Assembly (NCBI GenBank): GCA_001798075.1
Contig: MGRG01000008.1
Location: 62,001-126,000 of the forward strand
Source of the DNA: Deltaproteobacteria bacterium RIFCSPHIGHO2_01_FULL_43_49
GTDB taxonomy: Bacteria > UBA10199 > SPLOWO2-01-44-7
Direction of reading: 5' to 3'
Length of the DNA stretch: 64,000 nucleotides
Shown: positions 16,955-52,371 of the stretch, in pieces
How positions within the stretch are numbered: position 1 is the first letter of the stretch
Layout of the letters: each line of letters opens with the position of its first letter
The notes under the pieces: generated by a model
What the model was told of the DNA's origin: nothing
Database searches by the model: none
What the model saw: the letters and a program-made list of their open reading frames with translations, nothing else
Translations under genes and position numbers: made by a program

Positions 16955-17898
16955 AAAGCAGAAAAATTTACGTTGCTTTATCACAATTTTGTGAAAATGA
17001 CGAGCGACCTCGTAAGGTTTTACAAGAGGCTGGATTCATTGTGGAGGAGAATAAAACAGGCCGCCGAATCAAAAGAGAAGAGATGCTGGATGCACTTAAA
17101 GAGGCGGACGCTGTTTTAGCAGCTGTCGAACCTTATGATGCAGAGTTGTTGGCACAATTACCAAAGCTTCAATGTATTAGCCGTTGCGGTGTTGGAACGG
17201 ACGCCATTGATTTAGAAGTGGCGAAAAAATATGAGAAAACGGTGCTAGTGACCGCCGATGAGATTATAGAACCGGTGGCACAAATGACGTTAGCGATGAT
17301 TCTGGCGTTGGCTAGGAATTTTTCCCTGCATGCTCATGATTTTAAGGAGGCTCTTTGGAAAAAACATACCGGTTGGCTTTTGTCTGAATGGACGATTGGG
17401 CTTATTGGTTTTGGGAAGATCGGCCGCAAAGTTGAAGAATACTTGAGACCCTTTGGTGTCTGTGTGTTAGTTTGCGATCCTTATTTGAATAAGGAAAAGA
17501 TTCCGAAGGGAGTGACTCTTTGTGATTTGCCTACTCTTTTGGGAAAATCGGATTTAGTTTCCCTTCACCTTGCTCGGGATTCAAAAGAAGGTTATTTAAT
17601 TACCGCCAGAGAATTTGCCCAGATGAAGAAAGGGAGTTTTTTCGTCAATACAGCGCGAGGGTATATGGTTGAAGAAATGGCGCTCCAGGCCGCACTGAAA
17701 TCGGGCCATCTTGCCGGTGCGGCCCTCGATGTTTTTGAGCAGGAACCGTATCCGGGTCCGCTAACGAAATATTCCAACGTAATCCTAACACCGCACATTG
17801 CTACTTTGACAAGAGCGTCTCGTACCGCTATGGAACTCGGCTGTGCCCAAAATGTTGTATTTTTTTTTAAACAAATAGGAGAAAAGGATGGTCTCTGA
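16951..17898 (+). CDS. D-2-hydroxyacid dehydrogenase (phosphoglycerate dehydrogenase-like)
   Basis: A 315-residue NAD-dependent dehydrogenase. The Rossmann motif is IGLIGFGKIGRKVEEYL (about 149-165). Active-site residues are Arg in FVNTARGYMVEE, Glu in DVFEQEPYPG and His in ILTPHIATLT, matching the family's Arg-Glu-His set. It interconverts a 2-keto acid and a D-2-hydroxy acid. No regulatory ACT domain is present, unlike many serine-pathway enzymes. Placed between a CMP-ulosonate synthetase-like gene and an HldE-like fusion, it could supply an acid for glycan synthesis. It overlaps the next gene by 11 bp. Confidence 0.85.
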   Translation: MKSRKIYVALSQFCENDERPRKVLQEAGFIVEENKTGRRIKREEMLDALKEADAVLAAVEPYDAELLAQLPKLQCISRCGVGTDAIDLEVAKKYEKTVLVTADEIIEPVAQMTLAMILALARNFSLHAHDFKEALWKKHTGWLLSEWTIGLIGFGKIGRKVEEYLRPFGVCVLVCDPYLNKEKIPKGVTLCDLPTLLGKSDLVSLHLARDSKEGYLITAREFAQMKKGSFFVNTARGYMVEEMALQAALKSGHLAGAALDVFEQEPYPGPLTKYSNVILTPHIATLTRASRTAMELGCAQNVVFFFKQIGEKDGL

Positions 17899-19417
17899 AA
17901 AAATCAAAACTGTTATTCAATTACAAGAGATTTTGGGTGATCTCAAAAAATCTGGGAAAAAAATTGTTCAATGCCACGGTACTTTTGATTTATTGCATCC
18001 AGGTCATTTGAAACATTTAGAGGCTGCTAGGTCCTATGGGGATATTTTAGTTGTAACTATTACAGCAGATGCTTGGGTGAATCGGGGTCCGGGGCGCCCT
18101 ATTTATAATCAAAATGTCCGCGCTCAATTTTTGGCTGGAATGCAATGTGTTCATTTTGTCGCGATCGATGATAAACCAACTCCTATTGAAATTTTAAAAA
18201 GATTGAAACCAGATATATTTGTGAAGGGAGGGGATTATGAAGAAAAAGCTAGGGAACCACACAGTTTAACTCACGAGGAAAAAAGGGTTGTAGAGTCTTA
18301 TGGTGGTCAGATAAAATTTACTCACGAAGATCTTGTGTTCAGCTCTTCTCAACTTCTCAATGATTTCTTCTATGTTTTTCCAGAATCGACACAGGTTTTT
18401 TTGAATCATTTTAAGAAAGTATACGATCTTAATTTTTTTACAAATTATTTTGAAAAGACAAGACGCTTAAAAATTTTGACAGTAGGTGATACTATTATTG
18501 ATGAATATCACTATGGCGATGTTGTTGGGGGGGGCTCCAAGGAAAACATGCTTGTTTTTAAATATAAAGAAAACGAGATGTTTGCTGGCGGAGCTGTTGC
18601 CACCGCCAATAACATCTCCCTTTATTCGCAATTCGTAGAACTTTGTACATGCCTTGGTTGTGTCGATTCCAAAGAAAATTTTGTTCGTGATCACCTAAAA
18701 CCGAATGTTTCTTTAAAGCCATTTTACAGGTCTAATGGTTGCACGGTTGTCAATCGCAGATTTGCTGAAGAAATTTTTGTGGCAAAATTATTTGAAGAAT
18801 ATTTCATCAATGATGAACCCTTAGATGTGGTTACAGAAAAGAAAGTTTGTGACTATTTAGAGAAAATAATCGACGATTATGATTTGGTCGTTGTTAATGA
18901 TTTTGGTTTTGGATTTATAGGGCCTCAAGTGATTGATTTAGTTTGTAAACGGGCAAAATTTTTAGCCGTGAATACACAAACGAATAGTGTCAATCGCGGA
19001 TTTAATTTAATTACCAAGTACTCGAGGGCCGATTATGTTTGTATTGACCAGCCAGAATTGCGTTTAGCATTTTCTAATAAATATGGCGATATTCAAGATA
19101 TGATTTACCGTCTAGTAGAGAAAATGTTGCCTACAAAAGTAGCAATTACCCTAGGCCATGATGGTTCCATGACCCATGATGTTTCTAAGGATCAATTTTA
19201 TAAAATACCCGTTTTCTCTAAAAAAATCGTTGATCGTGTGGGGGCTGGAGATGCCTATTTTTCTGTGACGACGCCTTGTGTATTTGCTGGCATGCCAATG
19301 GATGCGATTGGTTTTTTAGGTAATGCGGTTGGGGCTATTGCAGTTACCATTGTTTGCAATCGATCTTCGGTAGAACCCCCCGTACTAACCAATTTTATCA
19401 AAACATTATTAAAATAA
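17888..19417 (+). CDS. Cytidylyltransferase-PfkB kinase fusion, domain order reversed relative to HldE
   Basis: A 509-residue two-domain protein. Residues about 1-160 form a cytidylyltransferase: HGTFDLLHPGHLKH (30-43) with the HxGH motif, VKGGDY (112-117) and FSSSQLL (151-157). Residues about 193-509 form a PfkB kinase: LTVGDTIIDEYHYGDVV at the start and the VGAGDAYF catalytic Asp near 449. Classical HldE, which makes ADP-heptose, has the kinase first; here the order is swapped. It likely phosphorylates a sugar or polyol at C-1 and then activates it with a nucleotide. A G8 run lies at 18537-18544 within the kinase. The exact sugar is unknown. Confidence 0.82.
   Translation: MVSEKIKTVIQLQEILGDLKKSGKKIVQCHGTFDLLHPGHLKHLEAARSYGDILVVTITADAWVNRGPGRPIYNQNVRAQFLAGMQCVHFVAIDDKPTPIEILKRLKPDIFVKGGDYEEKAREPHSLTHEEKRVVESYGGQIKFTHEDLVFSSSQLLNDFFYVFPESTQVFLNHFKKVYDLNFFTNYFEKTRRLKILTVGDTIIDEYHYGDVVGGGSKENMLVFKYKENEMFAGGAVATANNISLYSQFVELCTCLGCVDSKENFVRDHLKPNVSLKPFYRSNGCTVVNRRFAEEIFVAKLFEEYFINDEPLDVVTEKKVCDYLEKIIDDYDLVVVNDFGFGFIGPQVIDLVCKRAKFLAVNTQTNSVNRGFNLITKYSRADYVCIDQPELRLAFSNKYGDIQDMIYRLVEKMLPTKVAITLGHDGSMTHDVSKDQFYKIPVFSKKIVDRVGAGDAYFSVTTPCVFAGMPMDAIGFLGNAVGAIAVTIVCNRSSVEPPVLTNFIKTLLK
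18537..18544 (+). repeat. G8 homopolymer tract inside the HldE-like fusion
   Basis: Eight consecutive G bases encode part of a glycine triplet in the kinase domain (about residues 214-216). A single-base slip would truncate the kinase after about 215 residues, leaving the cytidylyltransferase. Glycine-rich coding alone could explain it, so phase variation is only a possibility. Confidence 0.5.
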
Positions 19418-39803: not shown

Positions 39804-41339
39804 ATGAGTAAAAATCTAAAAGTGCTCGTTATGGAGCCTGCCAACCAACAGCTTCCCACCGATACCGCGCGGCCAAACGGCGCTTTAGGTCCGGCGTTTT
39901 TAGTCGGTGCCTTGCGCGCTCAGGGTATCGAGGCCGATTATTTAGATGCAACCGTCGGTTTGCCGAGCGATTTGATCGAGGAGACTTTTTATAATCGCGT
40001 TGAACAGGAAAATGGGACCATCCGCTATGGCATGAGTGCTTCGGCGATGGCCAAAGTCTTTGCGAACTATGACATCATCGCGACCTCTTCTATATTTTCA
40101 GCGCAAACTCGCTTGCATCTGGAGGCCGCACGCATCGCAAAAGAGGTTGCCGATCAGCGTGGACGCGAGATCCTGGTAATCTCGGGTGGAGTGAATGCTC
40201 GTGCGATGCGAGAAGTTTTTTTGTCCAATCACTTCGATATCATCGCTTTGGCAGAGGGAGAAAAAGTTATTATCCAGATTATCGATGCTTTCTCACGTGG
40301 AAATCGGGATTTCTCAGGCATTCATGGAATTGCCACTCGTGATGGGGATCGCACTGTCTTGCAACCCGTTTCTTCTGAACGTAAGACCATTGAAATGAAG
40401 GATCTCCCTTTTCCTGCGTTTGATGCAATGCCGTTGGATCGATATCAACAAATTGGGATTCCCCATGCCGGTCTGCTTCCGAAGGGAATGAAATATGCCG
40501 CGATTCAAACCTCGCGGGGTTGCCAGGACCGTTGCACGTTCTGCCACATTTCTCTTGAGAAACAGCAAGCGGATTTACTGGGTGCTGTGGGATCCTTGAG
40601 AATGTTTTCCCTGGATCGCGTTCGCCAGGAAGTCGATCGTGCGGTGGCCTTAGGTGTAAACCGATTGTATTTCGAAGACGATAACTTGTTTTTTAACAAA
40701 AAGCGTCTTACTGAATTGGCTCCTATACTTCGGCGCGATGGTCTTGAATACTCGAACGTCAATGGCGCCAACCTCCGTTTTTTATTTAAACGCGATCAGC
40801 AAGGTCAAAACATTGTGGATACTGAGTTTATTGAGATGTTAGCTGGATTTGGATTGAAGGAGCTCGTGATGCCATTTGAATCGCGCAATGTCGATATCCT
40901 GCAGAAATACGCCAGCGGCAAATTCAATCCTGATGTGATGGATCCCATTTTGATCGTGAAGGCCTTGAAAAAGGTTGGGATTCGAATTTCCGGAAATTTT
41001 ATGATCGGGTTTCGGGATGAGTCCTGGGATTCGATCCTGCGCACGAAAGAATATGCGCGCGTGCTATTAGATGCGGGACTAGATGCCGTCGGGTTTATGA
41101 TTCCAGTTCCTTATCCTGGAAGTCTAGATTTTGAAGCAGTAATGCAGAATTCTGCTACCAGAGAAGAGTTCAACAAGGATCCGTTGCAATTCACCGATCA
41201 CATGCACTGGCGTGCCAAACCTCTTTTTCCAACGGTTGTATCTGGAGAGAAGCTGGTAGACGCTGTTCAGGAGTTTTGGCTTGAGCTCAACCAATCGCCT
41301 TACAAACAAGAGAAGCTATCGCAAAATGTTTGTAGCTAG
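39804..41339 (+). CDS. B12-binding-type radical SAM protein (BchE/HpnP-like layout)
   Basis: A 511-residue protein. Residues about 1-190 look like a B12-binding-like Rossmann domain (LVISGGVNAR, IALAEGEKV). The radical SAM cluster motif is CQDRCTFC (Cys240, Cys244, Cys247), followed by YFEDDNLFFNKK and a long C-terminal half. Such proteins carry out radical methylations, ring closures or carbon-skeleton changes. Its codons are visibly more GC-rich than neighbours, suggesting a different origin. The start lies 5 bp after the GT-C stop, and its last 24 bp overlap the convergent gene. Substrate unknown. Confidence 0.83.
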   Translation: MSKNLKVLVMEPANQQLPTDTARPNGALGPAFLVGALRAQGIEADYLDATVGLPSDLIEETFYNRVEQENGTIRYGMSASAMAKVFANYDIIATSSIFSAQTRLHLEAARIAKEVADQRGREILVISGGVNARAMREVFLSNHFDIIALAEGEKVIIQIIDAFSRGNRDFSGIHGIATRDGDRTVLQPVSSERKTIEMKDLPFPAFDAMPLDRYQQIGIPHAGLLPKGMKYAAIQTSRGCQDRCTFCHISLEKQQADLLGAVGSLRMFSLDRVRQEVDRAVALGVNRLYFEDDNLFFNKKRLTELAPILRRDGLEYSNVNGANLRFLFKRDQQGQNIVDTEFIEMLAGFGLKELVMPFESRNVDILQKYASGKFNPDVMDPILIVKALKKVGIRISGNFMIGFRDESWDSILRTKEYARVLLDAGLDAVGFMIPVPYPGSLDFEAVMQNSATREEFNKDPLQFTDHMHWRAKPLFPTVVSGEKLVDAVQEFWLELNQSPYKQEKLSQNVCS

Positions 41340-42977
41340 TTTGATCACTTTTCCTCTTGAAAAGGGGTCTTCAATCAGCAGAGAAGATTCTCCCTCTATT
41401 CCCTGATGCAACCACTGTTTTTCTTCTCTACTCAAAGAGGTGGCAAAATCGACCAAAGCTGTGTCATCAAACCAATCCCATTCTTCTCGTTCGAGCTGGT
41501 TGATGATGGCGGCAGGCTGGAAAGAGGTACCCAGCCATTTCCAGACCATCTCTCTTCCCAGCCTTTCATAACAAGACTGTTTTAAGGGGAGAGAAGCTTG
41601 TACACAAAGAGAGGGGTTAGTAACCATGTCGATAGAAGTTTGTTCCGGCGAAAGACAGCTTAGGGTTACAAAGGCCAACCGTCTTTTTTCTTCAGCACTG
41701 CGGTTCTCAAGAAAGATTTCTAATTTTTTAGGGTTCTGACTCCGGCAGGCAATTTGTTGCGTCAAAAGCATATACGAATAACCCTGGATCTGAAAGGCCT
41801 CCCCCAATTTTTTAAAGCGCACGAGACTCAAATCTCCCAAGATCCATGCGGTTATGCAGAAGAGGGCTAAGCTTGTCCTAAACTTATTTTTCAAAAACCG
41901 GGAAGCACCTAAAACTAAGGTCATTCCAATAAAGGGGACAATGGGAAGAAAAAGCTCTTTGCCATAGATTCTCCCAGATACCAATGCCAGCGCAATAAAC
42001 AACAGTTGGTAAGTGACCCCAAAAGCTTGCACGTCAAAACCTTTATCACCTTGAAAGTTAAGCAACGATTTTCTTTTCTCCCACACTAGATAAATTAAAG
42101 AAGAAAGGTAAGAAAAAGTAAAAAATCCGGTCAAAATGAATTTTGGGAGGGGAGGAAATTTTTGAAATACGAAGAGCCCGGGGATACCGTGGCTAAAAAC
42201 CCAAACAAATCTTTGCAAAAAATGACCCCAGGAAAAGTGTATCCATGTAAATATCTCTCTCATCGAGGAATAACCGGTCATGCTGTATTTTAATTGATAA
42301 ACGATCAAGGGGCTGACGCCGATTAAAAATGCGGGAATGGCCACCCCGAAAAAAACCGGTTTTCTGATTTTCGTTTCTTTGAAAAAGAGGAGATGCAAAC
42401 ATAAAAGAGCTAGGGCTACTCCATTGGCTAGACTTAGAGAGCAAATCAATCCGCCAAACAGTCCCAAATACAAACCTCCCACGATTTCTCCTCCCAATTT
42501 CCCGCGTAAAAACTGCCTGTAAAGAATCAATGCCAAAGCCGTCCACAACATGGTTTCCATATGCTGATGCCCATAGGTAAGAGAATAAAAAACCATGACA
42601 GGGGAAAGAACAAAAAAGAGCAGAATGTAAAAAGTCTTTTTAGGAGAAAAGGTCTCCCGCCAAACGTACCACCAAGCGATCAATGGAAAAATATACCAGG
42701 TAAGAGAAGCCAACTTTAAAGAGAACAAGGTGCTTCCAAACAACAAAAAAAAGGGAACGGCAAAGGCAGCATCCAACAAGGAAGTGACAGCATAGGGTCT
42801 TTTTTGATAATCTAATAAAGATATCGGTAAATGGGGAGCCTTTGTTATAAGTTCGTTTGCTATCGCTCCAATATCGAGTTCATCGGATAGTAATTGGTTG
42901 GAAAAAAGTAATGGTACTCGGACCAAGCAATACAGTACAAACAGTACTAAAAAATATTTTTTGGAATTAGAGAACAT
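41316..42977 (-). CDS. GT39/ArnT-like membrane glycosyltransferase
   Basis: A 553-residue polytopic protein. After the first segment a SDELDIGAIANELI loop carries the acidic residues typical of GT-C transferases such as ArnT and PMT. About 10 further hydrophobic segments follow, then a soluble C-terminal part of about 150 residues. It would transfer a sugar from a polyprenyl phosphate to an acceptor on the periplasmic side. It overlaps the GmhB-like gene by 11 bp, at the end of an operon that begins with a GT2. Confidence 0.72.
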   Translation of the reverse strand: MFSNSKKYFLVLFVLYCLVRVPLLFSNQLLSDELDIGAIANELITKAPHLPISLLDYQKRPYAVTSLLDAAFAVPFFLLFGSTLFSLKLASLTWYIFPLIAWWYVWRETFSPKKTFYILLFFVLSPVMVFYSLTYGHQHMETMLWTALALILYRQFLRGKLGGEIVGGLYLGLFGGLICSLSLANGVALALLCLHLLFFKETKIRKPVFFGVAIPAFLIGVSPLIVYQLKYSMTGYSSMREIFTWIHFSWGHFLQRFVWVFSHGIPGLFVFQKFPPLPKFILTGFFTFSYLSSLIYLVWEKRKSLLNFQGDKGFDVQAFGVTYQLLFIALALVSGRIYGKELFLPIVPFIGMTLVLGASRFLKNKFRTSLALFCITAWILGDLSLVRFKKLGEAFQIQGYSYMLLTQQIACRSQNPKKLEIFLENRSAEEKRRLAFVTLSCLSPEQTSIDMVTNPSLCVQASLPLKQSCYERLGREMVWKWLGTSFQPAAIINQLEREEWDWFDDTALVDFATSLSREEKQWLHQGIEGESSLLIEDPFSRGKVIKLATNILR

Positions 42978-43494
42978 TGTTCTGGATTAGAAGGGTAGCA
43001 TCGAATAGACAATTTACCTTATAATCGCTTTGCAACTCCTTATTATATGGAGCCTCCACAAGGATACTTTTACAGCCCGCGGCAGCTGCTGCTTTGGCAT
43101 CTGCGTCCGTATCTCCAATCATATATGAATGGGCCAAATCAATATGCCATTTCTTTGCCGCCTCAAGCAACATCCCCGGTTTCGGTTTTTTGCATAAACA
43201 GTCATCTGCTCTGGTATGAAAACAAACAAAAATATCATCAAAAGGTAATTGTTCGATGTAAGACTGCATCCAGCGCCATTCCCGCGGTGAAAGATGTCCA
43301 TAGGCAATATCTGGCTGATTCGTAACAAGAATGCGCAGAAAACCAAAAGAGCCAATCAAAGAAAGTATCTGATGAACATCGACTTCAATCTGAAATTCGT
43401 CGCGTCTCCAAGGTGCTGTGGGTTTTCCGTTACGTAAGATTGGTGTGACAATGACCCCATCACGATCAAAAAAGATTGCCCTTCTTTTTTTCAT
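42967..43494 (-). CDS. gmhB: HAD phosphatase, D,D-heptose 1,7-bisphosphate phosphatase-like (GmhB)
   Basis: A 175-residue HAD of the histidinol-phosphatase/GmhB subgroup. Motif I is FFDRDGVIV (8-16), motif II is LVTNQPD, the zinc-loop-like string DDCLCKKPKPG includes two Cys, and motif IV is MIGDTDADAKAA. GmhB dephosphorylates heptose 1,7-bisphosphate to heptose 1-phosphate. The next gene upstream is an HddA-like kinase, which makes that substrate, so a GDP-heptose pathway is likely. It overlaps the kinase by 4 bp. Confidence 0.88.
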   Translation of the reverse strand: MKKRRAIFFDRDGVIVTPILRNGKPTAPWRRDEFQIEVDVHQILSLIGSFGFLRILVTNQPDIAYGHLSPREWRWMQSYIEQLPFDDIFVCFHTRADDCLCKKPKPGMLLEAAKKWHIDLAHSYMIGDTDADAKAAAAAGCKSILVEAPYNKELQSDYKVNCLFDATLLIQNNVL

Positions 43495-44504
43495 GAGGAG
43501 CGTCGCGGGCTATAAAATCCATTTGAAAGAGTTGCACCCTGCCAATCATAAGAGAAGCTAACTTCTTCAAGGCCCCCTTGATACATTGTAGAACGAACTC
43601 TCTCTTTTTCTGAAGGAGGAACAAAAAGCAAGAAGAGACCTCCACCTCCCGCACCAATGAGCTTACCTCCCAATGCTCCATTGTTGCGAGCCAACTGGTA
43701 AAGCTTATCAAAACGTGGATTGGATACTCCCCCTGCGAGGCATCTTTTCGTTTCCCAATGCTCGTGTAAAAGTTCTCCAAAATGAATAAGATCACTATGG
43801 ATAAGTGACTCATGGATGCGCATACCAATATCTTTGATCCGGTGATAATATTCGTAAACTCTCACCCCATCATTTTTCTCTGCTAATTCGCGTTGGGCGG
43901 AAAGGACAGCAGAACTTTCACGGCGTTCCCCCGTATAAAACAAAAGAAGATAAGATTTTAGTTCATGAAGAGTTTTTTTGGTCACGGGTGGATCCTCTAC
44001 GATGACACTTCCATCTTTGTTAATGCGTAGCAACTTAAGCCCCCCATAACTGGCCATATAATGATCGTGCTTTCCAATAGGGCGTCTGAGGATGTCCAGC
44101 TCAACGTGCGCTGCGGCCTCTGCCAGATCCTTTTTGTCCATCAATTTCCCTTTAAGATACGAAAGGGTTTGCATGAGACAGACGGTATAGGCGCCGGATG
44201 TCCCCATGCCAGTGCCGTCTGAAAGATCCGATGAGAATGTAATCTGAAGACGTTCGGTAACACCACTTGCATGACAACTGGCACGCACCAATTCATTTTT
44301 TATGTCATTGAGATTCTCAGCATATTCATTGATTCTGGCTTTTACTCGAATTCCTTTTTCAATAGAAGGTTGCAGAGTTGTAACATAGGCATAGTTATCT
44401 ATGGCCACGCTCAAAACAAAACCGCCAAAACGTGACGAATAGAACTGAAGGTCAGTACCACCCCCCCCGAGTGGTATTCTTAGAGGTGCTCTCGCTACAA
44501 TCAT
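43491..44504 (-). CDS. GHMP-family heptose 7-phosphate kinase-like (HddA)
   Basis: A 337-residue GHMP kinase. ATG 44504 is chosen over 44543 because the product then begins IVARAPLRIPLGGGGTDL and a CCGGAG site lies just upstream. The ATP loop is DGTGMGTSGAYTV, which differs from the usual GLGSSSA by its Met/Thr. GGKLIGAGGGGLFLLF is motif 3. HddA phosphorylates heptose 7-phosphate at C-1. A C8 run at 44461-44468 (G8 on the coding strand) encodes part of the first glycine loop. It is one of two HddA-like kinases in the window. Confidence 0.85.
   Translation of the reverse strand: MIVARAPLRIPLGGGGTDLQFYSSRFGGFVLSVAIDNYAYVTTLQPSIEKGIRVKARINEYAENLNDIKNELVRASCHASGVTERLQITFSSDLSDGTGMGTSGAYTVCLMQTLSYLKGKLMDKKDLAEAAAHVELDILRRPIGKHDHYMASYGGLKLLRINKDGSVIVEDPPVTKKTLHELKSYLLLFYTGERRESSAVLSAQRELAEKNDGVRVYEYYHRIKDIGMRIHESLIHSDLIHFGELLHEHWETKRCLAGGVSNPRFDKLYQLARNNGALGGKLIGAGGGGLFLLFVPPSEKERVRSTMYQGGLEEVSFSYDWQGATLSNGFYSPRRSS
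44461..44468 (-). repeat. G8 coding-strand tract in first HddA-like kinase
   Basis: Eight C bases on the plus strand, giving G8 on the coding strand, encode the early glycine loop. A slip of one base would end the kinase within its first 30 codons. It is explained by glycine codons, but is a candidate slippage site. Confidence 0.5.
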
Positions 44505-44517
44505 AACTCCGGACACC

Positions 44518-46527
44518 CTAGCTAGAAAAATTTGATGAGTCAAGAATCTGTTTCAATTCTTTTGCAATAGAGTTTGCGGTTGCAGCGGCGGTAATTACTT
44601 TTCCACCGAGAATAGACCAGCATCCGAATCCATGCCTAATGATATCCGACGGTCGAGCATCATCATGCTCACGATAGGCATTGACAGCCCGGATTACAAA
44701 GCGCGATTCAACATGTTCGGCAAAACGCAAGATCGGAAACCAATTCTGGCACTCAGAAACAATTTTTTTCCAATTCGATTTTGGGAGTTTCCATTCAGGA
44801 ACGAGGCCATCTGAGGGAACAAACGATTTTCTAAGTGATGTCCGAACATGACCGAGTGTAAATAAGCTTGGCTCTCCGGTTGTAACGAGTGTTGGAAAGG
44901 CCCCATCCATGATGGTCAAAGCAATCGCTGGAATGGGCAGGCGTATCACAACAAGCTCCACGAGATCCATGCGCAGCGGCTTTAAGGGGAAGTCAAACCA
45001 GTGCGCAAATGCATTCATCCTTGCGTAGGTGGCATTGACAACAAAATCAAAGGGCATCTTGTATTCCCTTCCTTTCTTAGTCACCCATAAGTATTTCTTT
45101 CCATCTTGTCCCAAAAATCCCTTATCCACTCGAGAGTTAAGGTGGAGAGAAATCGTTTTGCGTCGTTTCATATGAGTTTCTACAATTTTTTTTAATTTTT
45201 GGTAGTCATAAATGGGCTCGTTTGTTTTTATACAAAGGGAAACTTTTTTCCGATCCAAGAGGTTATGAGGAGGATAGGAACGGACAAAAGGAAGATGATT
45301 CGTGCGACAGAATGTTAAATATTTTTTTGCGGAGATTTTTGATTTTAGATGACTCACGCAGTAAAAAGATGGGAAATGTCTAACAACTGCTTTGCCAAAA
45401 ACGTCTTCAAACACCGGTCGTGCCTCTTGAGATTCCTGAACGGTTTCTTTGCTTCGGGGATAGTGATATCCCATGTGATGACGGTATTGATTGACGAAGG
45501 AGGCCTCCTCCATGAGACTAGATCGTTTTTCGAAAAGATGTACTTGGCCTAACTTCCCCAACTCAATGGCGGCTGTTGCGCCAAAAATCCCTCCCCCGAT
45601 TACGGCAATTTTGGGTTTTCTATTGGTTCGGAATGATCGGATTTTTTCCATTCCTGTGATAATTTTTTGTGCAAGTGCAATATCCGGATAAGTTTGGTGT
45701 TCCTTTCTCAAAATCTTTAAGAATGTCTCCAGCTCCAACTGAAGGGGTTCTGGTTTGGAAGGACAGGAAATAGTTTTTGTCTTTTTCCCTTTCACAATCT
45801 CGATAATATTTTTTGCAAAATCACAATGAACGGAGATGTTTTTGAAATGGAAAGTAAGCGTTCGCACTTTTTCTGATCTGTGAAATCCTATGTCGAACAC
45901 CCCCTTAATTTTTCTAGGGTAAAAAATAGAAGTGCTTATCCAGTTATTGTGGTTGGTTCTAATTCCCCCCCGTGGTACCAGGCCAAATAGATATTCAACA
46001 ATGTCGAAGGGATGTAGTAACTCAAAAAGGGCATCCCATTTGATTTTTTTTACCTCCGGGTAAAGAAACCGCGCAGAAATAAAGTGGGGAACTCCCATGG
46101 GTTGAATAATCGAGCGAAGCCTTCTTACCAACGGATGGAAATGATAAATGTGCCCCACCATCACTTTTTTTCCGCTTTTTCTTGAAACTTTCTTGATAAT
46201 GGCAATTTGGTTGGAGTTAAGTGCAATGGGTTTTTCCACTAAAATATTTGTGTGACGAAGAATAGATTTAACCAGAGAGAAATGAGTCGGTGTCGGCGTT
46301 GTTATATCAACACCATCAACGCTTTGAAGCAGTTTTGTCGACAAACGATTAAAGATGGGAATCGAATGTTGCCGCATTAATTCTTGTCGGTGCTTGTCTG
46401 TTTTAACAGCAACACCCGCCAGCTTGCACAATCCCTTCCTTTCCAGTTTTAGTAAGACCCTTAGGTGGTTGTGCCCAAATCTGCCCGCACCCATTAGAAG
46501 TATCCGGGGGACGTTACTTTTTTTCAT
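44518..46527 (-). CDS. Fusion of Gfo/Idh/MocA dehydrogenase and FAD-dependent oxidoreductase
   Basis: A 669-residue two-enzyme fusion. Residues about 1-300 are Gfo/Idh/MocA type: LLMGAGRFGHNHL (10-22) and NILVEKPIALN with EKP at 98-100. Residues about 305-669 are a D-amino-acid-oxidase-like flavoprotein: KIAVIGGGIFGATAAIEL (306-323), HLFEKRSSLMEE, a DFVVNATYARM turn and a terminal CWSILGGKVITAA. I know no standard family with this domain order. It overlaps the upstream GT2 by 14 bp and lies 13 bp before the HddA-like gene. It may oxidise successive positions of a heptose or amino sugar; inference. Confidence 0.82.
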   Translation of the reverse strand: MKKSNVPRILLMGAGRFGHNHLRVLLKLERKGLCKLAGVAVKTDKHRQELMRQHSIPIFNRLSTKLLQSVDGVDITTPTPTHFSLVKSILRHTNILVEKPIALNSNQIAIIKKVSRKSGKKVMVGHIYHFHPLVRRLRSIIQPMGVPHFISARFLYPEVKKIKWDALFELLHPFDIVEYLFGLVPRGGIRTNHNNWISTSIFYPRKIKGVFDIGFHRSEKVRTLTFHFKNISVHCDFAKNIIEIVKGKKTKTISCPSKPEPLQLELETFLKILRKEHQTYPDIALAQKIITGMEKIRSFRTNRKPKIAVIGGGIFGATAAIELGKLGQVHLFEKRSSLMEEASFVNQYRHHMGYHYPRSKETVQESQEARPVFEDVFGKAVVRHFPSFYCVSHLKSKISAKKYLTFCRTNHLPFVRSYPPHNLLDRKKVSLCIKTNEPIYDYQKLKKIVETHMKRRKTISLHLNSRVDKGFLGQDGKKYLWVTKKGREYKMPFDFVVNATYARMNAFAHWFDFPLKPLRMDLVELVVIRLPIPAIALTIMDGAFPTLVTTGEPSLFTLGHVRTSLRKSFVPSDGLVPEWKLPKSNWKKIVSECQNWFPILRFAEHVESRFVIRAVNAYREHDDARPSDIIRHGFGCWSILGGKVITAAATANSIAKELKQILDSSNFSS

Positions 46528-47266
46528 TATTGTTAATGGATCGTATAGGATAGGGCGAATATCTTCCCATCTTGTAATAGGCGCTCAGTGGTTTTTTGAG
46601 ATATTTCACAAAAAAGCCAACACGCAACAAATTAAAACTTCCACGCATCATCTTTAAAATGGGTATTTTGGAAGAGCCGGCTTGACGCAAATTGTGTCGA
46701 ACGGGAATTTCACAGATTTTGGCACCTCTTTCCTTTGCAACTGCCGGTAGGAAAACTTGTGCCTGACCCCAAAGATAGAAATCGCGAATAAAACGACTGC
46801 GATAGGCTTTGAGACCACAACCAAAATCATGAATGGATAGATCAAAAAAATAGCGTGCAGTAGCATTAGCGATTTTTGAAAAAATAAGACGAGAGGTAGC
46901 ATCTTTACGTTCTTTACGCCACCCCACAACAACATCGTAACCTTCTGAAAGCTTCTTCAACAGTGGAAGAATATCATTTGGATCGTTTTGAAGATCGGCG
47001 TCAATAAGTACGATAATGTCTCCTTTTGCCTCGCGAATCCCGACATCGAGCGCTGGGGTTTGTCCGCAATTTCTTTCCAAATGAATAACTTTCAGTGGAG
47101 ATAGCGAAGATAGCTCCTCTTCTGTACCGTCGGTAGAGCCATCGTTTACAAAAATAATTTCATAAGGATCGGGTTGGCGATTCAACGCCACAACGATTCT
47201 CCGGTGAAGTTCCCTAACAATCGCCTCTTCGTTATAGACAGGGACAACAACTGAAATTTTTACCAT
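46514..47266 (-). CDS. Family 2 glycosyltransferase (DPM/ArnC-like)
   Basis: A 250-residue GT2. ATG 47266 has GGAAGGAGTG upstream and begins MVKISVVVPVYNEEAIV; the longer frame to 47374 is rejected. IIFVNDGSTDGTEEEL and the DxD of VLIDADLQNDPNDIL are conserved, and FGCGLKAYRSRFI matches the polyprenyl-phosphate transferase group. The C-terminus has no clear transmembrane pair, unlike ArnC. It heads an operon ending in a GT39-like gene, so it may load the donor that protein uses. Confidence 0.86.
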   Translation of the reverse strand: MVKISVVVPVYNEEAIVRELHRRIVVALNRQPDPYEIIFVNDGSTDGTEEELSSLSPLKVIHLERNCGQTPALDVGIREAKGDIIVLIDADLQNDPNDILPLLKKLSEGYDVVVGWRKERKDATSRLIFSKIANATARYFFDLSIHDFGCGLKAYRSRFIRDFYLWGQAQVFLPAVAKERGAKICEIPVRHNLRQAGSSKIPILKMMRGSFNLLRVGFFVKYLKKPLSAYYKMGRYSPYPIRSINNNEKK

Positions 47267-47342
47267 ACTAAAAATCACTCCTTCCGTGTCATTACCAAAA
47301 AGGTTGTTTTCATAGGAAAGTTGGGGTAGGAGTAGGCAAATT

Positions 47343-48197
47343 ATGCCGAAAATGCAAGGTAAAGTGGTTCTCATTACCGGAGGGAGTTTAGGGATTGGTC
47401 AATGCATTGCCAAAACCTTTGCTAAAGAGGGGGCTAGAGTCTTTATCTGCTCTCGAACTTCTGCCGACGTGAACTATATAACGAAAGCCATCCAGGAAGA
47501 GAATGAATTTTGTGAAGGTCTTTCCATGGATGTAACAGACTCAGGCCAAGTTAAAGCTTGGGTTGAAGACATCTACCAAAGGCTTAAACGAGTTGATCTG
47601 CTTATCAATTGCGCTGGAATTTACGGTCCCATTGGACCAATGGAAACGCTGGATCCAAAGGAATGGAAAAACACAGTTGAGATTAACCTTTTTGGGACTG
47701 TGAATTGTATCCGTGCCGTGGTTCCCATCATGAAAAAACAAAGAGCTGGAAAAATCATTAATTTTTCAGGAGGGGGTGTTGGGGGTGTTTTGAATCCTAA
47801 TTTTTCGGCCTATATTGCTTCGAAAGCAGGGGTGGGTGCTATTACAGAAGTTTTGGCCCGTGAGCTGAAGGATTTTAATATCCAGGTGAACGCGATTGCC
47901 CCGGGAGCTGTCAATACCCGGTTTTTGGATCGTGTTCTGGAGGCTGGTTCCAACCCGGGTAAGGAATTTTACGAGCGCTCTTTGAGACAAAAGGAAGAAG
48001 GGGGAACCCCTCCGGAACTAGCTGCAAAATTGGCCCTTTTTTTAGCTTCAGAAGACTCTAATTTTATCACGGGTAAAATCATTTCTGCTAAATGGGATCC
48101 ATTTCATCAGGCAAAGGAGTTTAGGGAGGAGTTAGAGAAGGGGGGGCTCTGGAATTTGCGGCGTATCGACAGGATGAAATTCTATGAAAAAACTTAA
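47343..48197 (+). CDS. Short-chain dehydrogenase with non-canonical C-terminus (paralogue)
   Basis: A 284-residue SDR. Cofactor motif ITGGSLGIGQCI (11-22), active Ser in INFSGGGVGG and YIASK in SAYIASKAGV. Like the protein at 21078 it ends FITGKIISAKWDPF, then adds about 35 residues with LWNLRRID. The shared ending and SGGG string show common descent. ATG 47343 follows an AGGAG at about 14 bases. It opens a short divergent operon with two epimerases. Confidence 0.86.
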   Translation: MPKMQGKVVLITGGSLGIGQCIAKTFAKEGARVFICSRTSADVNYITKAIQEENEFCEGLSMDVTDSGQVKAWVEDIYQRLKRVDLLINCAGIYGPIGPMETLDPKEWKNTVEINLFGTVNCIRAVVPIMKKQRAGKIINFSGGGVGGVLNPNFSAYIASKAGVGAITEVLARELKDFNIQVNAIAPGAVNTRFLDRVLEAGSNPGKEFYERSLRQKEEGGTPPELAAKLALFLASEDSNFITGKIISAKWDPFHQAKEFREELEKGGLWNLRRIDRMKFYEKT

Positions 48198-49062: not shown

Positions 49063-50009
49063 AGTATTTTGTGACTGGGGGTGCCGGATTTATCGGAAGT
49101 CATTTGGTTGACCGACTGATGGCACAGGGACATTCGATTGTCGTTTACGATAACTTGTCAACTGGCAAAGAGGATTTTACTCGTCATCATTATGGTTCTC
49201 CTAGTTTTCGTTTTATCAAAGGGGATTGCCTTGAATTTGCCCCCTTGCAAGAGGCTATGTCTGGTTCTCAATTCGTTTTTCATCTGGCCGCCAATTCTGA
49301 TATCCCCAAGGGGGCTAGCGAAACAAGGCTCGATCTGGAGCAAGGGACATGCGTTACCTACAATGTAATGGAGGCGATGCGGCAAAATCGCGTAGAAAAA
49401 ATTCTTTTTTCCTCCAGCAATGTTATTTATGGAGAAGCCCAGCAGATGCCAACACCGGAGGATTATGGGCCACTCCTTCCGATTTCTTTTTATGCCGCTG
49501 CTAAGCTCGCTTCCGAGGGATTGATAACTGCTTTTTGCCACAATTTCAACATGCGCTGTTGGATCTACCGGTTTGGCAATATCGTGGGCCCTCGTGCCAC
49601 GCACGGGGTGATGTATGATTTCTACAACAAATTACAGAAAAATTCTGAGGAACTAGAAGTCTTGGGGGATGGCAACCAGTCTAAGCCGTACCTTGAAATT
49701 TCCGATTGTATTGAGGCGCTTCTGTTCGGTGTTCGTCATGGCCAAGATAGTGTCAACGTTTTCAATCTGGGGACTGGCGAGGCCACATCGGTGAGTACCA
49801 TTGGTCGTATGGTCCTAGAGGAGATGGGACTGGTAAAAACACGCTTGCGTTATACTGGTGGTCGACGCGGTTGGCCAGGGGATATCCATACCGTGCGACT
49901 CGATTGCGACAAATTACGCTCACTGGGTTGGAAGCCTAAATATACCTCTGACGAAGCAGTGCGTGTGGCCTTTCAGGCGATGCTTAAAGAATGGTGTTGG
50001 CGTTCCTAG
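49059..50009 (+). CDS. NAD-dependent epimerase/dehydratase (extended SDR)
   Basis: A 316-residue extended [20 protein letters not shown] (4-20), LFSSSNVIYGE and the catalytic pair in SFYAAAKLASEG are intact. VYDNLSTGKEDF and the GDGNQSKPYLEISD loop recall UDP-glucose 4-epimerase-type enzymes. It overlaps the preceding gene by 4 bp and ends 4 bp into the convergent HddA-like gene. Nucleotide-sugar epimerisation is likely, and a GDP-heptose substrate is possible from the neighbouring heptose genes. Confidence 0.85.
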   Translation: MKYFVTGGAGFIGSHLVDRLMAQGHSIVVYDNLSTGKEDFTRHHYGSPSFRFIKGDCLEFAPLQEAMSGSQFVFHLAANSDIPKGASETRLDLEQGTCVTYNVMEAMRQNRVEKILFSSSNVIYGEAQQMPTPEDYGPLLPISFYAAAKLASEGLITAFCHNFNMRCWIYRFGNIVGPRATHGVMYDFYNKLQKNSEELEVLGDGNQSKPYLEISDCIEALLFGVRHGQDSVNVFNLGTGEATSVSTIGRMVLEEMGLVKTRLRYTGGRRGWPGDIHTVRLDCDKLRSLGWKPKYTSDEAVRVAFQAMLKEWCWRS

Positions 50010-50986
50010 TGGATGAAGATGATCTTGCTTCCCTGTTTTTCAAATCGGATATCGACAGGACGTAATTCTGGCAGTGATTTTTTTATGGATTCATGTTTTT
50101 CCTTAGGAGCGTAAAAAATTAGAAAGCCGCCCCCCCCCGCGCCTAGAAGTTTGCCACCAATAGCACCGGCTTTCAACGCTTTTTCATACCAACTATCAAT
50201 TTGAGTATTACTAATTCCATCAGTGATTTCTCTTTTGAGCATCCAGTTTTCATGTAAAATCTCTCCAAAGGAATCGAGATTGTTTTTTTGTAGTTCCTCT
50301 TTCATTAAAAAAGCCAATTGAACCATTTTTTTTAGGAGCAATTTTTTTTCAGGATTTTTTAAGAGGACCTCGCTTTGCGCTTTAAGAATATCGGCGGCGC
50401 TATGCCCAAAACCGGTGTGCAGCAATAACAAATTGCTTTGTAACTGTTCTAATGTTTCCAAGCGGCATATGATCGGATCGACAAAAACCGATTCATCCGG
50501 GTTAAACTGAATAAATTTGAATCCTCCATAAGCGGCGATATATTGATCCTGTTTGCCAATAGGGTCTTCACAGTCTACCATTTCAACCTCGCAAGCCTCT
50601 TTGCATAGATCTTCTGCAGAACGAAAATCTCGTTTGTAGGTATGGAGCGCGTTAAGCAATCCTACAGTGAAAGAGCTAGAGGAACCAAGGCCAGTGCCGT
50701 GCGAAGGAATGTCCGCGACGGAAGTAATTTCAATGCCCCCAGGAATCTTGAGTCTTTTTAAGGCAGCACGGAGCACTTTGTGTTGGATGGCATCTACCTC
50801 ATCAACAATTTCTGTTTTGGAATAGCCGAGACGAAATCCCTTTTCAAAACGATTATTCACAGTAACATAAATATATTTATTAATCGCAGTACTAACAACG
50901 GCTCCCATCTCTTCTCTGTAAAAAGAGGGGATGTCACTTCCGCCACCGACAAAGCTGATTCTTAAAGGTGTTGAGCTAATAATCAT
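50006..50986 (-). CDS. hddA: GHMP-family heptose 7-phosphate kinase-like (HddA), second copy
   Basis: A 326-residue GHMP kinase. It begins IISSTPLRISFVGGGSDIP, contains the classical ATP loop SHGTGLGSSSSFTVG and ends with GGKLLGAGGGGFLIFY. The ATP loop is more canonical than in the copy at 43491. It overlaps an HddC-like guanylyltransferase by 11 bp, a pairing known from the GDP-D-glycero-D-manno-heptose pathway. A C9 run at 50130-50138 encodes motif 3 glycines. No GmhA isomerase is in the window. Confidence 0.88.
   Translation of the reverse strand: MIISSTPLRISFVGGGSDIPSFYREEMGAVVSTAINKYIYVTVNNRFEKGFRLGYSKTEIVDEVDAIQHKVLRAALKRLKIPGGIEITSVADIPSHGTGLGSSSSFTVGLLNALHTYKRDFRSAEDLCKEACEVEMVDCEDPIGKQDQYIAAYGGFKFIQFNPDESVFVDPIICRLETLEQLQSNLLLLHTGFGHSAADILKAQSEVLLKNPEKKLLLKKMVQLAFLMKEELQKNNLDSFGEILHENWMLKREITDGISNTQIDSWYEKALKAGAIGGKLLGAGGGGFLIFYAPKEKHESIKKSLPELRPVDIRFEKQGSKIIFIH
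50130..50138 (-). repeat. G9 coding-strand tract in second HddA-like kinase
   Basis: Nine C bases on the plus strand encode the glycines of motif 3 near the C-terminus. This is the longest G/C run I found. Slippage would replace the last 40 residues or so. Confidence 0.5.
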
Positions 50987-51683
50987 GAGACAATGCCTTT
51001 TTCGCGATCTCTAATCGTTCGAAGGTGCCCATATCGTAATAGCGAGTGTTTGTAAAGTAACCCCAAAGAACCTTTTTTTTGATCAACTGAGGGTAGATTT
51101 CATCTTCAAAAGAGATTTTTTTGTCGGCCGGGATGGCATTCAAAACGGTGCGCCGATAATAAGCAATGCCCCCATCGACACCATTCATCTCTTTGGTTTC
51201 CTTGGCCTTCGAATAAGCTGAGATGAGACCCCCTTCCTCTAGACGCATGTTGTTTTCAGCAATGGGTTCCCAATTTTTATAAACCGCAATCATACCTCCT
51301 TCGCTAATCCCCCGGGCTTTGTGGAGAAAATCGGGGTAATCAAGAGGACAAAAGGTGTCGCCATTGAGGAGCAGGAATTCCTCCCGGATTTTGTTTTGTG
51401 CCAGCTTTAACGCCCCACCGGTTCCCATCGGCTCTGGTTCATAGGCATATTGGATATTTATTTTTAATTGTTTGCCGTCTTGAAAATAGTTTTCGACCTG
51501 TTCTCCAAGATAACTGAGGAGCAATAAAAAATCGTTGAATCCCTGGTTTTTGAGATATTCAAATTGATATTGTAAAAAAGGTTTGTCACCTATTTCCACC
51601 ATCACTTTTGGAATCTTGGATGTAATGGGTCTAAGCCTTGTGCCCAATCCCCCCGCTAGGATGACCACTTGCAAAGGTTTCAT
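50976..51683 (-). CDS. Sugar-1-phosphate nucleotidyltransferase, HddC-like
   Basis: A 235-residue nucleotidyltransferase. ATG 51683 gives MKPLQVVILAGGLGTRLRPI; the longer frame to 51806 lies inside the GT2 gene and is rejected. The signature continues with KVMVEIGDKPFLQY, and LLLNGDTFCPLD holds the metal-binding Asp. Paired with an HddA-like kinase, it is likely the guanylyltransferase that makes GDP-heptose. The closest alternative is a mannose-1-phosphate or glucose-1-phosphate transferase. Confidence 0.84.
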   Translation of the reverse strand: MKPLQVVILAGGLGTRLRPITSKIPKVMVEIGDKPFLQYQFEYLKNQGFNDFLLLLSYLGEQVENYFQDGKQLKINIQYAYEPEPMGTGGALKLAQNKIREEFLLLNGDTFCPLDYPDFLHKARGISEGGMIAVYKNWEPIAENNMRLEEGGLISAYSKAKETKEMNGVDGGIAYYRRTVLNAIPADKKISFEDEIYPQLIKKKVLWGYFTNTRYYDMGTFERLEIAKKALSHDY

Positions 51684-51684
51684 C

Positions 51685-52371
51685 TTAAAGTTTTGCAGGG
51701 TCAATGGCCTTGATGTTGAAGAGATATTTGATAATACATAGCAAAAAACAGCGGCCAGACCGGAAAAGATTGACAGTCGGCTCGCCAATGCGTGGACGAT
51801 AATCAATCGGAATCTCCTTGAATCGGAGCCCGAGTTTTTTCGTCTTCACAATGATCTCAATCCAAAAAGAGTAGTTGGTTTCCCACTTTGCCGCATTAAT
51901 GAGCTTTCTCGAATAAAGCCGCATGCCGCTGGCAATATCTTTGGTGCGGATACCAAAAGGGATGGCTACAAGCAGTGCAAAAGTTCGATTGCCAAGCCAA
52001 TTGAGCCACGGCATTGCCTTTTGTTTTTTGTGTAGACGGCTCCCATTTACAAAATCATATCCTTTTTGATACCAACCGATAAATTCAGGAATGGCATCCA
52101 TGGGGTAGGTCCCATCGCAATCAGAAACAATGACGACTTCGCCCTTGGAGGTGTGTAGTCCCTCGATGATTGCCTTGCCGGGACCGCATTTTGGCATGGT
52201 GATGACCTTGCAGCCGAGTGATCGGGCAATGTCGGGTGTTTTGTCGGTAGAGGAATCAACAATGATGATTTCAGGATTATAAGCGGCGGCGTATTTTTGA
52301 ATATCGCGCACCACCACAGCGATGGCTTTTTCTTCGTTCAATGTTGGCATTACAACGGAAAGAGTCGTCAT
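51685..52371 (-). CDS. Family 2 glycosyltransferase (DPM1-like)
   Basis: A 228-residue GT2. LSVVMPTLNEEKAI, IIIVDSSTDKTPDI and the DxD in IVSDCDGTYPMDA are conserved. DIASGMRLYSRKL and the IDYRPRIGEPTVNLFRSG string match polyprenyl-phosphate mannose synthase-type enzymes. It lies 4 bp after the flavoprotein gene and 1 bp before the HddC-like gene. It could use GDP-heptose or another sugar from this operon. Confidence 0.85.
   Translation of the reverse strand: MTTLSVVMPTLNEEKAIAVVVRDIQKYAAAYNPEIIIVDSSTDKTPDIARSLGCKVITMPKCGPGKAIIEGLHTSKGEVVIVSDCDGTYPMDAIPEFIGWYQKGYDFVNGSRLHKKQKAMPWLNWLGNRTFALLVAIPFGIRTKDIASGMRLYSRKLINAAKWETNYSFWIEIIVKTKKLGLRFKEIPIDYRPRIGEPTVNLFRSGRCFLLCIIKYLFNIKAIDPAKL

Follow-up and report, generated by a model that had tools for sequence, protein, structure and literature searches.

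DprE1, which is of the VAO type, and DprE2, an SDR, together form the decaprenylphosphoryl-ribose 2'-epimerase and represent a type of enzyme pair that is a drug target in mycobacteria. Acting as a FAD oxidase and a NAD(P)H reductase, they jointly invert one sugar hydroxyl via a ketone, and work beside the synthesis of a polyprenyl-phosphate sugar (PMC11127046). The gene described here joins two redox enzymes in one chain and resembles that pair in its presumed epimerase logic, but it is built from DAO/GlpD and Gfo/Idh/MocA (Gfo) folds, Pfam finds neither VAO-type nor SDR domains in it, and DprE1 and DprE2 are separate proteins that handle a pentose, not a heptose; given its other Pfam domains, the fusion may work like DprE1/DprE2 without being a member of that type. 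A pathway with similar enzyme types, that of the octose in lincosamide synthesis, serves an antibiotic and not a polysaccharide and, to our knowledge, includes no FAD oxidoreductase. Compared by type only, its enzymes (LmbR/N/P/K/O/Z/S) are the same as those of the cassette analysed below, the lincosamide set comprising a transaldolase, an isomerase, a kinase, a phosphatase, a guanylyltransferase, a dehydrogenase, an epimerase, the oxidoreductase LmbZ and an aminotransferase (PMC4351081).

Each half of the fusion also has described relatives of its own. GlpD and GlpO, a dehydrogenase and an oxidase of glycerol 3-phosphate, act on a secondary alcohol beside a phosphate. They resemble the C-terminal half in fold and in its two motifs, H-x-G and GGK; that half differs from them in its low identity (18%), in its sugar-cluster context and in a family-specific motif, NQxRxHxG[YF]HYPRS. 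GnnA and KijD10, which perform C3 chemistry on nucleotide sugars, share the fold of the N-terminal half but are stand-alone enzymes without a FAD domain, at approximately 14-20% identity. Plasmid relatives with a GT2, a GtrA or SMR protein and a membrane protein beside the FAD enzyme recall three-component (GtrA/GtrB/GtrC) periplasmic side-chain glycosylation, whereas the cassette studied here has no GtrA in view and its GT2, unlike related ones, has no membrane helices at the C-terminus.

The fused gene and its two halves

The window, that is, the whole stretch of 64,000 nucleotides analysed (G000:C8:62001-126000), belongs to a 2.2 Mb genome that is 98% complete (Table 1). The fusion gene has an ATG start, a single terminal stop and no internal stops, while the other two minus-strand frames over the same interval contain 32 and 36. 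The sequence-only reading had seen in it two complete NAD(P) and FAD redox enzymes joined at about residue 300, and this is borne out by the reading frame, Pfam, AlphaFold2 and Foldseek alike: the frame runs uninterrupted over 669 codons, with no missed stop or frameshift between the domains, and the domain-architecture search places GFO_IDH_MocA (residues 8-126, E 8e-17) and DAO (residues 306-471, E 3.5e-9), both above cut-off, in the single ORF, on either side of a junction at about residues 300-304. The AlphaFold2 model, built with 17 sequences (mean pLDDT 85.8, pTM 0.69), has two complete folded halves, each of which matches full-length solved enzymes in Foldseek. The same genome encodes another complete copy of the fusion (G000:C5:280519-282519), 77% identical over its whole length and likewise flanked by GT2 and GHMP kinase-HAD phosphatase genes. 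Compared with the window copy, its Gfo half has a dN/dS of 0.18-0.23 and its FAD half one of 0.11-0.13. That two complete redox enzymes are fused here is thus confirmed; an assembly or frameshift artefact was rejected because of this paralogue, the fusions in another phylum and the clean frame. We also rejected translation of the FAD half from a start of its own inside the gene: the sole ATG near the junction, codon 293, has an AGGA without spacing and is not conserved, the paralogue having ATA there. Our search of the open-access literature gave no paper on such a fusion or on the FAD enzyme in sugar clusters.

Table 1. Features of the fusion gene and its surroundings, in window coordinates.
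Feature	Position	Strand	Basis or remark
Fused Gfo/Idh/MocA-DAO oxidoreductase, 669 aa	44518..46527	-	ORF, Pfam, paralogue, AlphaFold2 model, Foldseek
N-terminal NAD(P) half, residues 1-300	45628..46527	-	Pfam, alignments, Foldseek
Rossmann motif GAGRFG, residues 13-18	46474..46491	-	motif in Gfo half
EKP, residues 98-100	46228..46236	-	motif in Gfo half
Conserved His172	46012..46014	-	catalytic-type His in Gfo half
C-terminal FAD half, residues 304-669	44518..45618	-	Pfam, GlpD profile alignment, Foldseek
GGGIFG, residues 311-316	45580..45597	-	dinucleotide motif, FAD half
Family motif NQYRHHMGYHYPR, residues 346-358	45454..45492	-	FAD half
GGK, residues 641-643	44599..44607	-	FAD half
GT2 glycosyltransferase, likely start near 47266	46514..47374	-	ArnC/PgfS polyprenyl-phosphate glycosyltransferase-like
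GHMP kinase, HddA (heptose 7-phosphate kinase)-like; overlaps fusion-gene end	43491..44543	-	NCBIfam, Pfam
HAD phosphatase, GmhB (heptose bisphosphate phosphatase)-like	42967..43494	-	NCBIfam, Pfam
B12-binding radical SAM protein; homologues in 7/7 window-clade cassettes	39804..41339	+	Pfam, NCBIfam
Second GHMP kinase, HddA-like	50006..50986	-	Pfam, NCBIfam
Sugar nucleotidyltransferase, HddC / mannose-1-P guanylyltransferase-like	50976..51806	-	Pfam, NCBIfam

The N-terminal half carries the NAD(P) Rossmann domain PF01408 (62.5 bits, cut-off 24), and its best Foldseek match is GnnA (7bvj), a UDP-GlcNAc 3-dehydrogenase, with a TM-score by target length of 0.83; the 3-ketoreductase KijD10 (TM 0.76) is also among the best folds. 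It has no Pfam match to a Gfo C-terminal domain (PF02894/PF22725, weak in the G590 fusion), but the predicted fold nonetheless covers full-length GnnA over 304 columns. Its best NCBIfam model is the UDP-GlcNAc 3-dehydrogenase NF040723, at 95.5 bits, below the equivalog cut-off of 450. The EKP motif and His172 are conserved across the aligned fusions and split relatives, PKP standing in place of EKP, by eye, in the G136 fusion. The subfamily does not conserve the canonical Gfo Asp that precedes the catalytic His by four residues, and the direction and mechanism of the reaction therefore cannot be read from the residues.

For the C-terminal half, Pfam returns the DAO domain PF01266 with its FAD Rossmann GxGxxG (37.1 bits, cut-off 27.9), and the Foldseek matches are to glycine oxidase, E. 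coli GlpD and GlpO. When a profile built from 18 FAD halves was compared with E. coli GlpD by hhalign, the probability was 93% and E was 4.4e-8 for the single comparison, with the L-2-hydroxyglutarate dehydrogenase LhgD about equally close (E 9.7e-8). In the profile alignment, the family motif N-Q-x-R-x-H-x-G-[YF]-H-Y-P-R falls on GlpD 'SSASSKLIHGGLRYLEH', the conserved H351 on 'klIHGGLRY' and K643 on 'svfGGKLTTYR'; the C-terminal motif, GGK or SGK in the family, aligns with GlpD and not with LhgD. From the established chemistry of GlpD, these motifs point to the oxidation of a secondary alcohol and not of an amine, and the FAD half is therefore probably a GlpD-like oxidase acting on a secondary alcohol.

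Relatives, partners and cassette genes

Full-length fusions occur in three Patescibacteria-type genomes, Candidatus Vogelbacteria (L005, 38% identical), G590 and G558; none was found in 45 other genomes searched within the source phylum, one of which (G012) has the FAD gene directly followed by a separate Gfo gene. The two genes are also separate neighbours in G126 (divergent), G640 (convergent) and G669 (approximately 0.85 kb apart on opposite strands), and they overlap in phage contigs L027 and L032 (DAO then Gfo) and L031 (Gfo then DAO), whereas contigs L029 and L030 encode both in one protein, of 590 and 565 aa respectively, in which the Gfo half is short. A more divergent fused form, whose N-terminal half is not recognised by the Pfam Gfo model, is present in G136. 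The plasmid search gave separate halves only, and for some FAD genes (L073, L076 and several phages) no partner is seen in the neighbourhood. Unlinked pairs of genes, which had been seen as a possible objection, are not the rule among the relatives; the split ones are mostly linked.

In the tree of the FAD (DAO) domain, which has 32 rows, the window-type clade (7 rows) is supported at 100/100, the phage fusions group at 96/95 inside a separate 14-row clade (100/99), and G136 is placed on a third branch. Because the window-type clade and the phage fusions lie apart, fusion arose at least twice. The tree of the Gfo domain does not resolve the partner domains as one group and is too poorly resolved to address co-inheritance with the FAD domain, so the Gfo domains may have joined the FAD enzyme on several occasions, perhaps for reactions that differ.

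Within the window-type clade, five of seven members are fused and two, L006 and G600 (L071), are without the Gfo half. Both have in the same gene run a DegT aminotransferase (the two are 60% identical), in the order DegT-GT2-FAD in G600 and DegT-NTP-GT2-FAD in L006, and they fall in different sub-branches of the FAD tree (86/58 and 97/89), which suggests that the Gfo half was lost twice, independently; the first of these branches is weak. No close Gfo homologue was found elsewhere in genomes G047 and G600 (best E 8.7e-5 and 1.9e-8, distant paralogues), as opposed to E 2.3e-39 or better in genomes with the fusion. That DegT strictly replaces Gfo across whole genomes is not supported: DegT genes are present elsewhere in fusion genomes, approximately 28 kb from the C5 copy and 15 kb away in G590, and we thus claim only a pattern at the level of the cassette, from few cases. 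A third DegT case comes from the sister clade, where in G412 the DegT gene adjoins those of a GT2-like protein and the FAD enzyme; proteobacterial plasmids and further genomes (G392, G276) pair the FAD enzyme with an SDR of RmlD/epimerase type, mostly with a xylose-isomerase-like TIM barrel and a GT2, and some with a GtrA or SMR transporter. The cassette of GlpD-like FAD enzyme, SDR, TIM-barrel isomerase and GT2 is widespread (L012-L016, L040, L041) and is found even on the 10.8 kb Psychrobacter plasmid pA22P4.

The cassette around the fusion is kept across two phyla, with the GT2, the FAD enzyme, the GmhB-like phosphatase and the B12-radical SAM protein in 7/7 members of the clade. The GT2 gene, which overlaps the fusion gene by 14 bp in the window, lies directly upstream of the gene for the FAD enzyme or fusion in each of the seven cassettes. 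A GHMP kinase is present in six, none being found within the 19 kb examined of G600, and a GmhA-like isomerase with a transaldolase in five; the source genome has its isomerase-transaldolase pair on the same contig (C8:1933-3199), approximately 103 kb from the fusion. The location beside heptose kinase and phosphatase genes, proposed earlier, is correct in that both genes are there, but their NCBIfam scores are below the cut-offs (142 bits of 600 for the kinase against HddA, 94 of 178 for the phosphatase against GmhB), which makes heptose likely, not certain. GmhA, kinase, GmhB and nucleotidyltransferase types are all present in the cassettes or the genome, at scores below the equivalog cut-offs.

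The window GT2 and its L009 paralogue are without the C-terminal membrane helices present in the L005 and L006 relatives, with a gap of about 60 residues ahead of the conserved PYxIRS tail.

A possible redox epimerase and its rivals

The reading that we prefer, at slightly less than even odds (about 0.48), is that the FAD half oxidises and the Gfo half reduces, so that a single centre is epimerised by redox chemistry. The substrate would be an activated sugar, probably of heptose type, in which the GlpD-type half turns one hydroxyl into a ketone; the Gfo half, using NAD(P)H, would then reduce this ketone from the opposite side, the net outcome being the inversion of one stereocentre, while the fusion would hold the reactive ketosugar within one enzyme. 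Gfo, SDR and DegT enzymes all act on ketosugars. In the sister cassettes without the Gfo half, DegT would aminate the same ketone, and an SDR partner would, like Gfo, reduce it to the epimer. In favour of this reading are the linkage of the two halves, their repeated fusion, the exchange of partners, the GlpD motifs, the GnnA and KijD10 folds, the heptose-type neighbours and the precedent of DprE1/DprE2. The analysis establishes that the fusion exists and is conserved, that its halves are linked, which folds they are predicted to have and that partners are exchanged. We infer the heptose substrate, its nucleotide or polyprenyl-phosphate carrier, the carbon and the direction of each step; C3 is favoured in view of the enzymes to which the Gfo half is related. 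The kinase, phosphatase, isomerase and transaldolase genes suggest an NDP-heptose, or an octose as in lincosamide synthesis. A GT2 like ArnC/PgfS makes a polyprenyl-linked sugar possible, and both carriers are kept as candidates. A nucleotide sugar is favoured by the phage pairs, which adjoin a gmd-type GDP-mannose 4,6-dehydratase gene in L029, L031 and L032 and have an HldE-like nucleotidyltransferase alongside in L027. Against epimerisation stand the closest solved Gfo structure, GnnA, which is a dehydrogenase and not a reductase, and the small number of DegT cases, two cassettes in the window clade and a third from another clade. The DegT genes elsewhere in fusion genomes, the poorly resolved Gfo tree and the FAD genes with no partner in view also weigh against it.

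It is less likely that the halves are two oxidoreductases of one pathway acting on different positions or intermediates, in which case the fusion would serve co-expression or channelling with no epimerisation of a single centre. Lincosamide sugar synthesis uses a comparable gene set with separate redox steps (PMC4351081), and the FAD enzyme is kept in the two cassettes where the Gfo half is missing, both of which agree with such a division of labour; the phage pairs, however, occur on contigs where no kinase, isomerase or transaldolase is seen alongside, so that Gfo and FAD enzyme look like a self-contained pair.

The sequence-only reading had both halves act on one sugar, which is plausible because they are linked (fused, adjacent or divergent) in many lineages, but it suggested that they may perform two successive oxidations, Gfo with NAD(P)+ on one hydroxyl and the FAD half on another, to give a doubly oxidised sugar. 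We regard this as rather improbable. Both folds do include true dehydrogenases, GnnA being a 3-dehydrogenase, and the best NCBIfam model of the Gfo half has the same activity, below cut-off as given above. Nevertheless, the replacement of Gfo by an SDR or by an aminotransferase suggests that a single ketone is made, to be reduced or aminated in a second step, these partners and the 3-ketoreductase fold fit oxidation followed by ketone processing better than a second oxidation, and no enzyme using a diketone is conserved in the cassette.

Some Gfo sugar dehydrogenases (WbpB/WlbA) recycle NAD+ with 2-oxoglutarate. This, and the closeness of the FAD half to LhgD as much as to GlpD, would suit a FAD half that regenerates the cofactor or co-oxidant of Gfo, for instance by re-oxidising a 2-hydroxyglutarate-type product, but the FAD enzyme is often found with SDR, DegT or no Gfo, and its GGK aligns with GlpD alone of the two, which leaves the idea with little probability. 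Least probable of all is an operon fusion without new function, or with one half catalytically dead, as the divergent Gfo half of G136 and the apparent loss of the Gfo half from two cassettes might suggest, given that both halves keep their cofactor motifs, that purifying selection operates between the paralogues (dN/dS 0.11-0.23) and that fusion arose at least twice.

On the redox-epimerase reading, and with somewhat more reserve, the protein may be proposed as a second, unrelated solution to the DprE1/DprE2 reaction: a single-chain enzyme of a GlpD-type FAD oxidase and a Gfo NAD(P)H reductase, with interchangeable finishers (Gfo or SDR to the epimer, DegT to the amino sugar), also carried by phages and independently fused there. 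The fusion is not a categorically new system. If the proposal is true, there would be a second, unrelated FAD/NAD sugar epimerase beside the DprE1/DprE2 type, and a one-gene tool to invert a hydroxyl in rare sugars. The FAD family is widespread in Patescibacteria-type genomes, proteobacterial plasmids, the source phylum and phages, with no described function found, and it gains a testable reaction, in which a ketosugar is made and then reduced or aminated by a fused or neighbouring partner.

Phage contigs and the surrounding polysaccharide region

The phage Gfo and FAD pairs were taken from IMG/VR, the INPHARED phage database having given one weak Gfo match only. They lie in glycosyltransferase-rich regions (L029 5884-7656, L030 5911-7608, L027 5992-7727, L031 5274-7044 and L032 6037-7772); L032 also has, by eye, T4-like replication and recombination genes, so this contig at least looks like a true phage. 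In other viral contigs (L033-L037) the FAD enzyme is present but no Gfo gene is visible. A pair of SDR and B12-radical SAM genes is common, by eye, to phage L027 (9558-12036) and the source-genome stretch L049 (9246-11709).

In the stretches read, the first 126 kb of the window's contig consist mostly of polysaccharide and sugar-nucleotide genes, and several further Gfo genes and GHMP kinases are found in these stretches (the window, L049 and L050). An HldE-like protein of reversed order, nucleotidyltransferase then kinase, is encoded at L009 10837-12363, where the order was tested, and the HldE-like gene at 17888-19417 of the window looks, by eye, to have the same reversed order.
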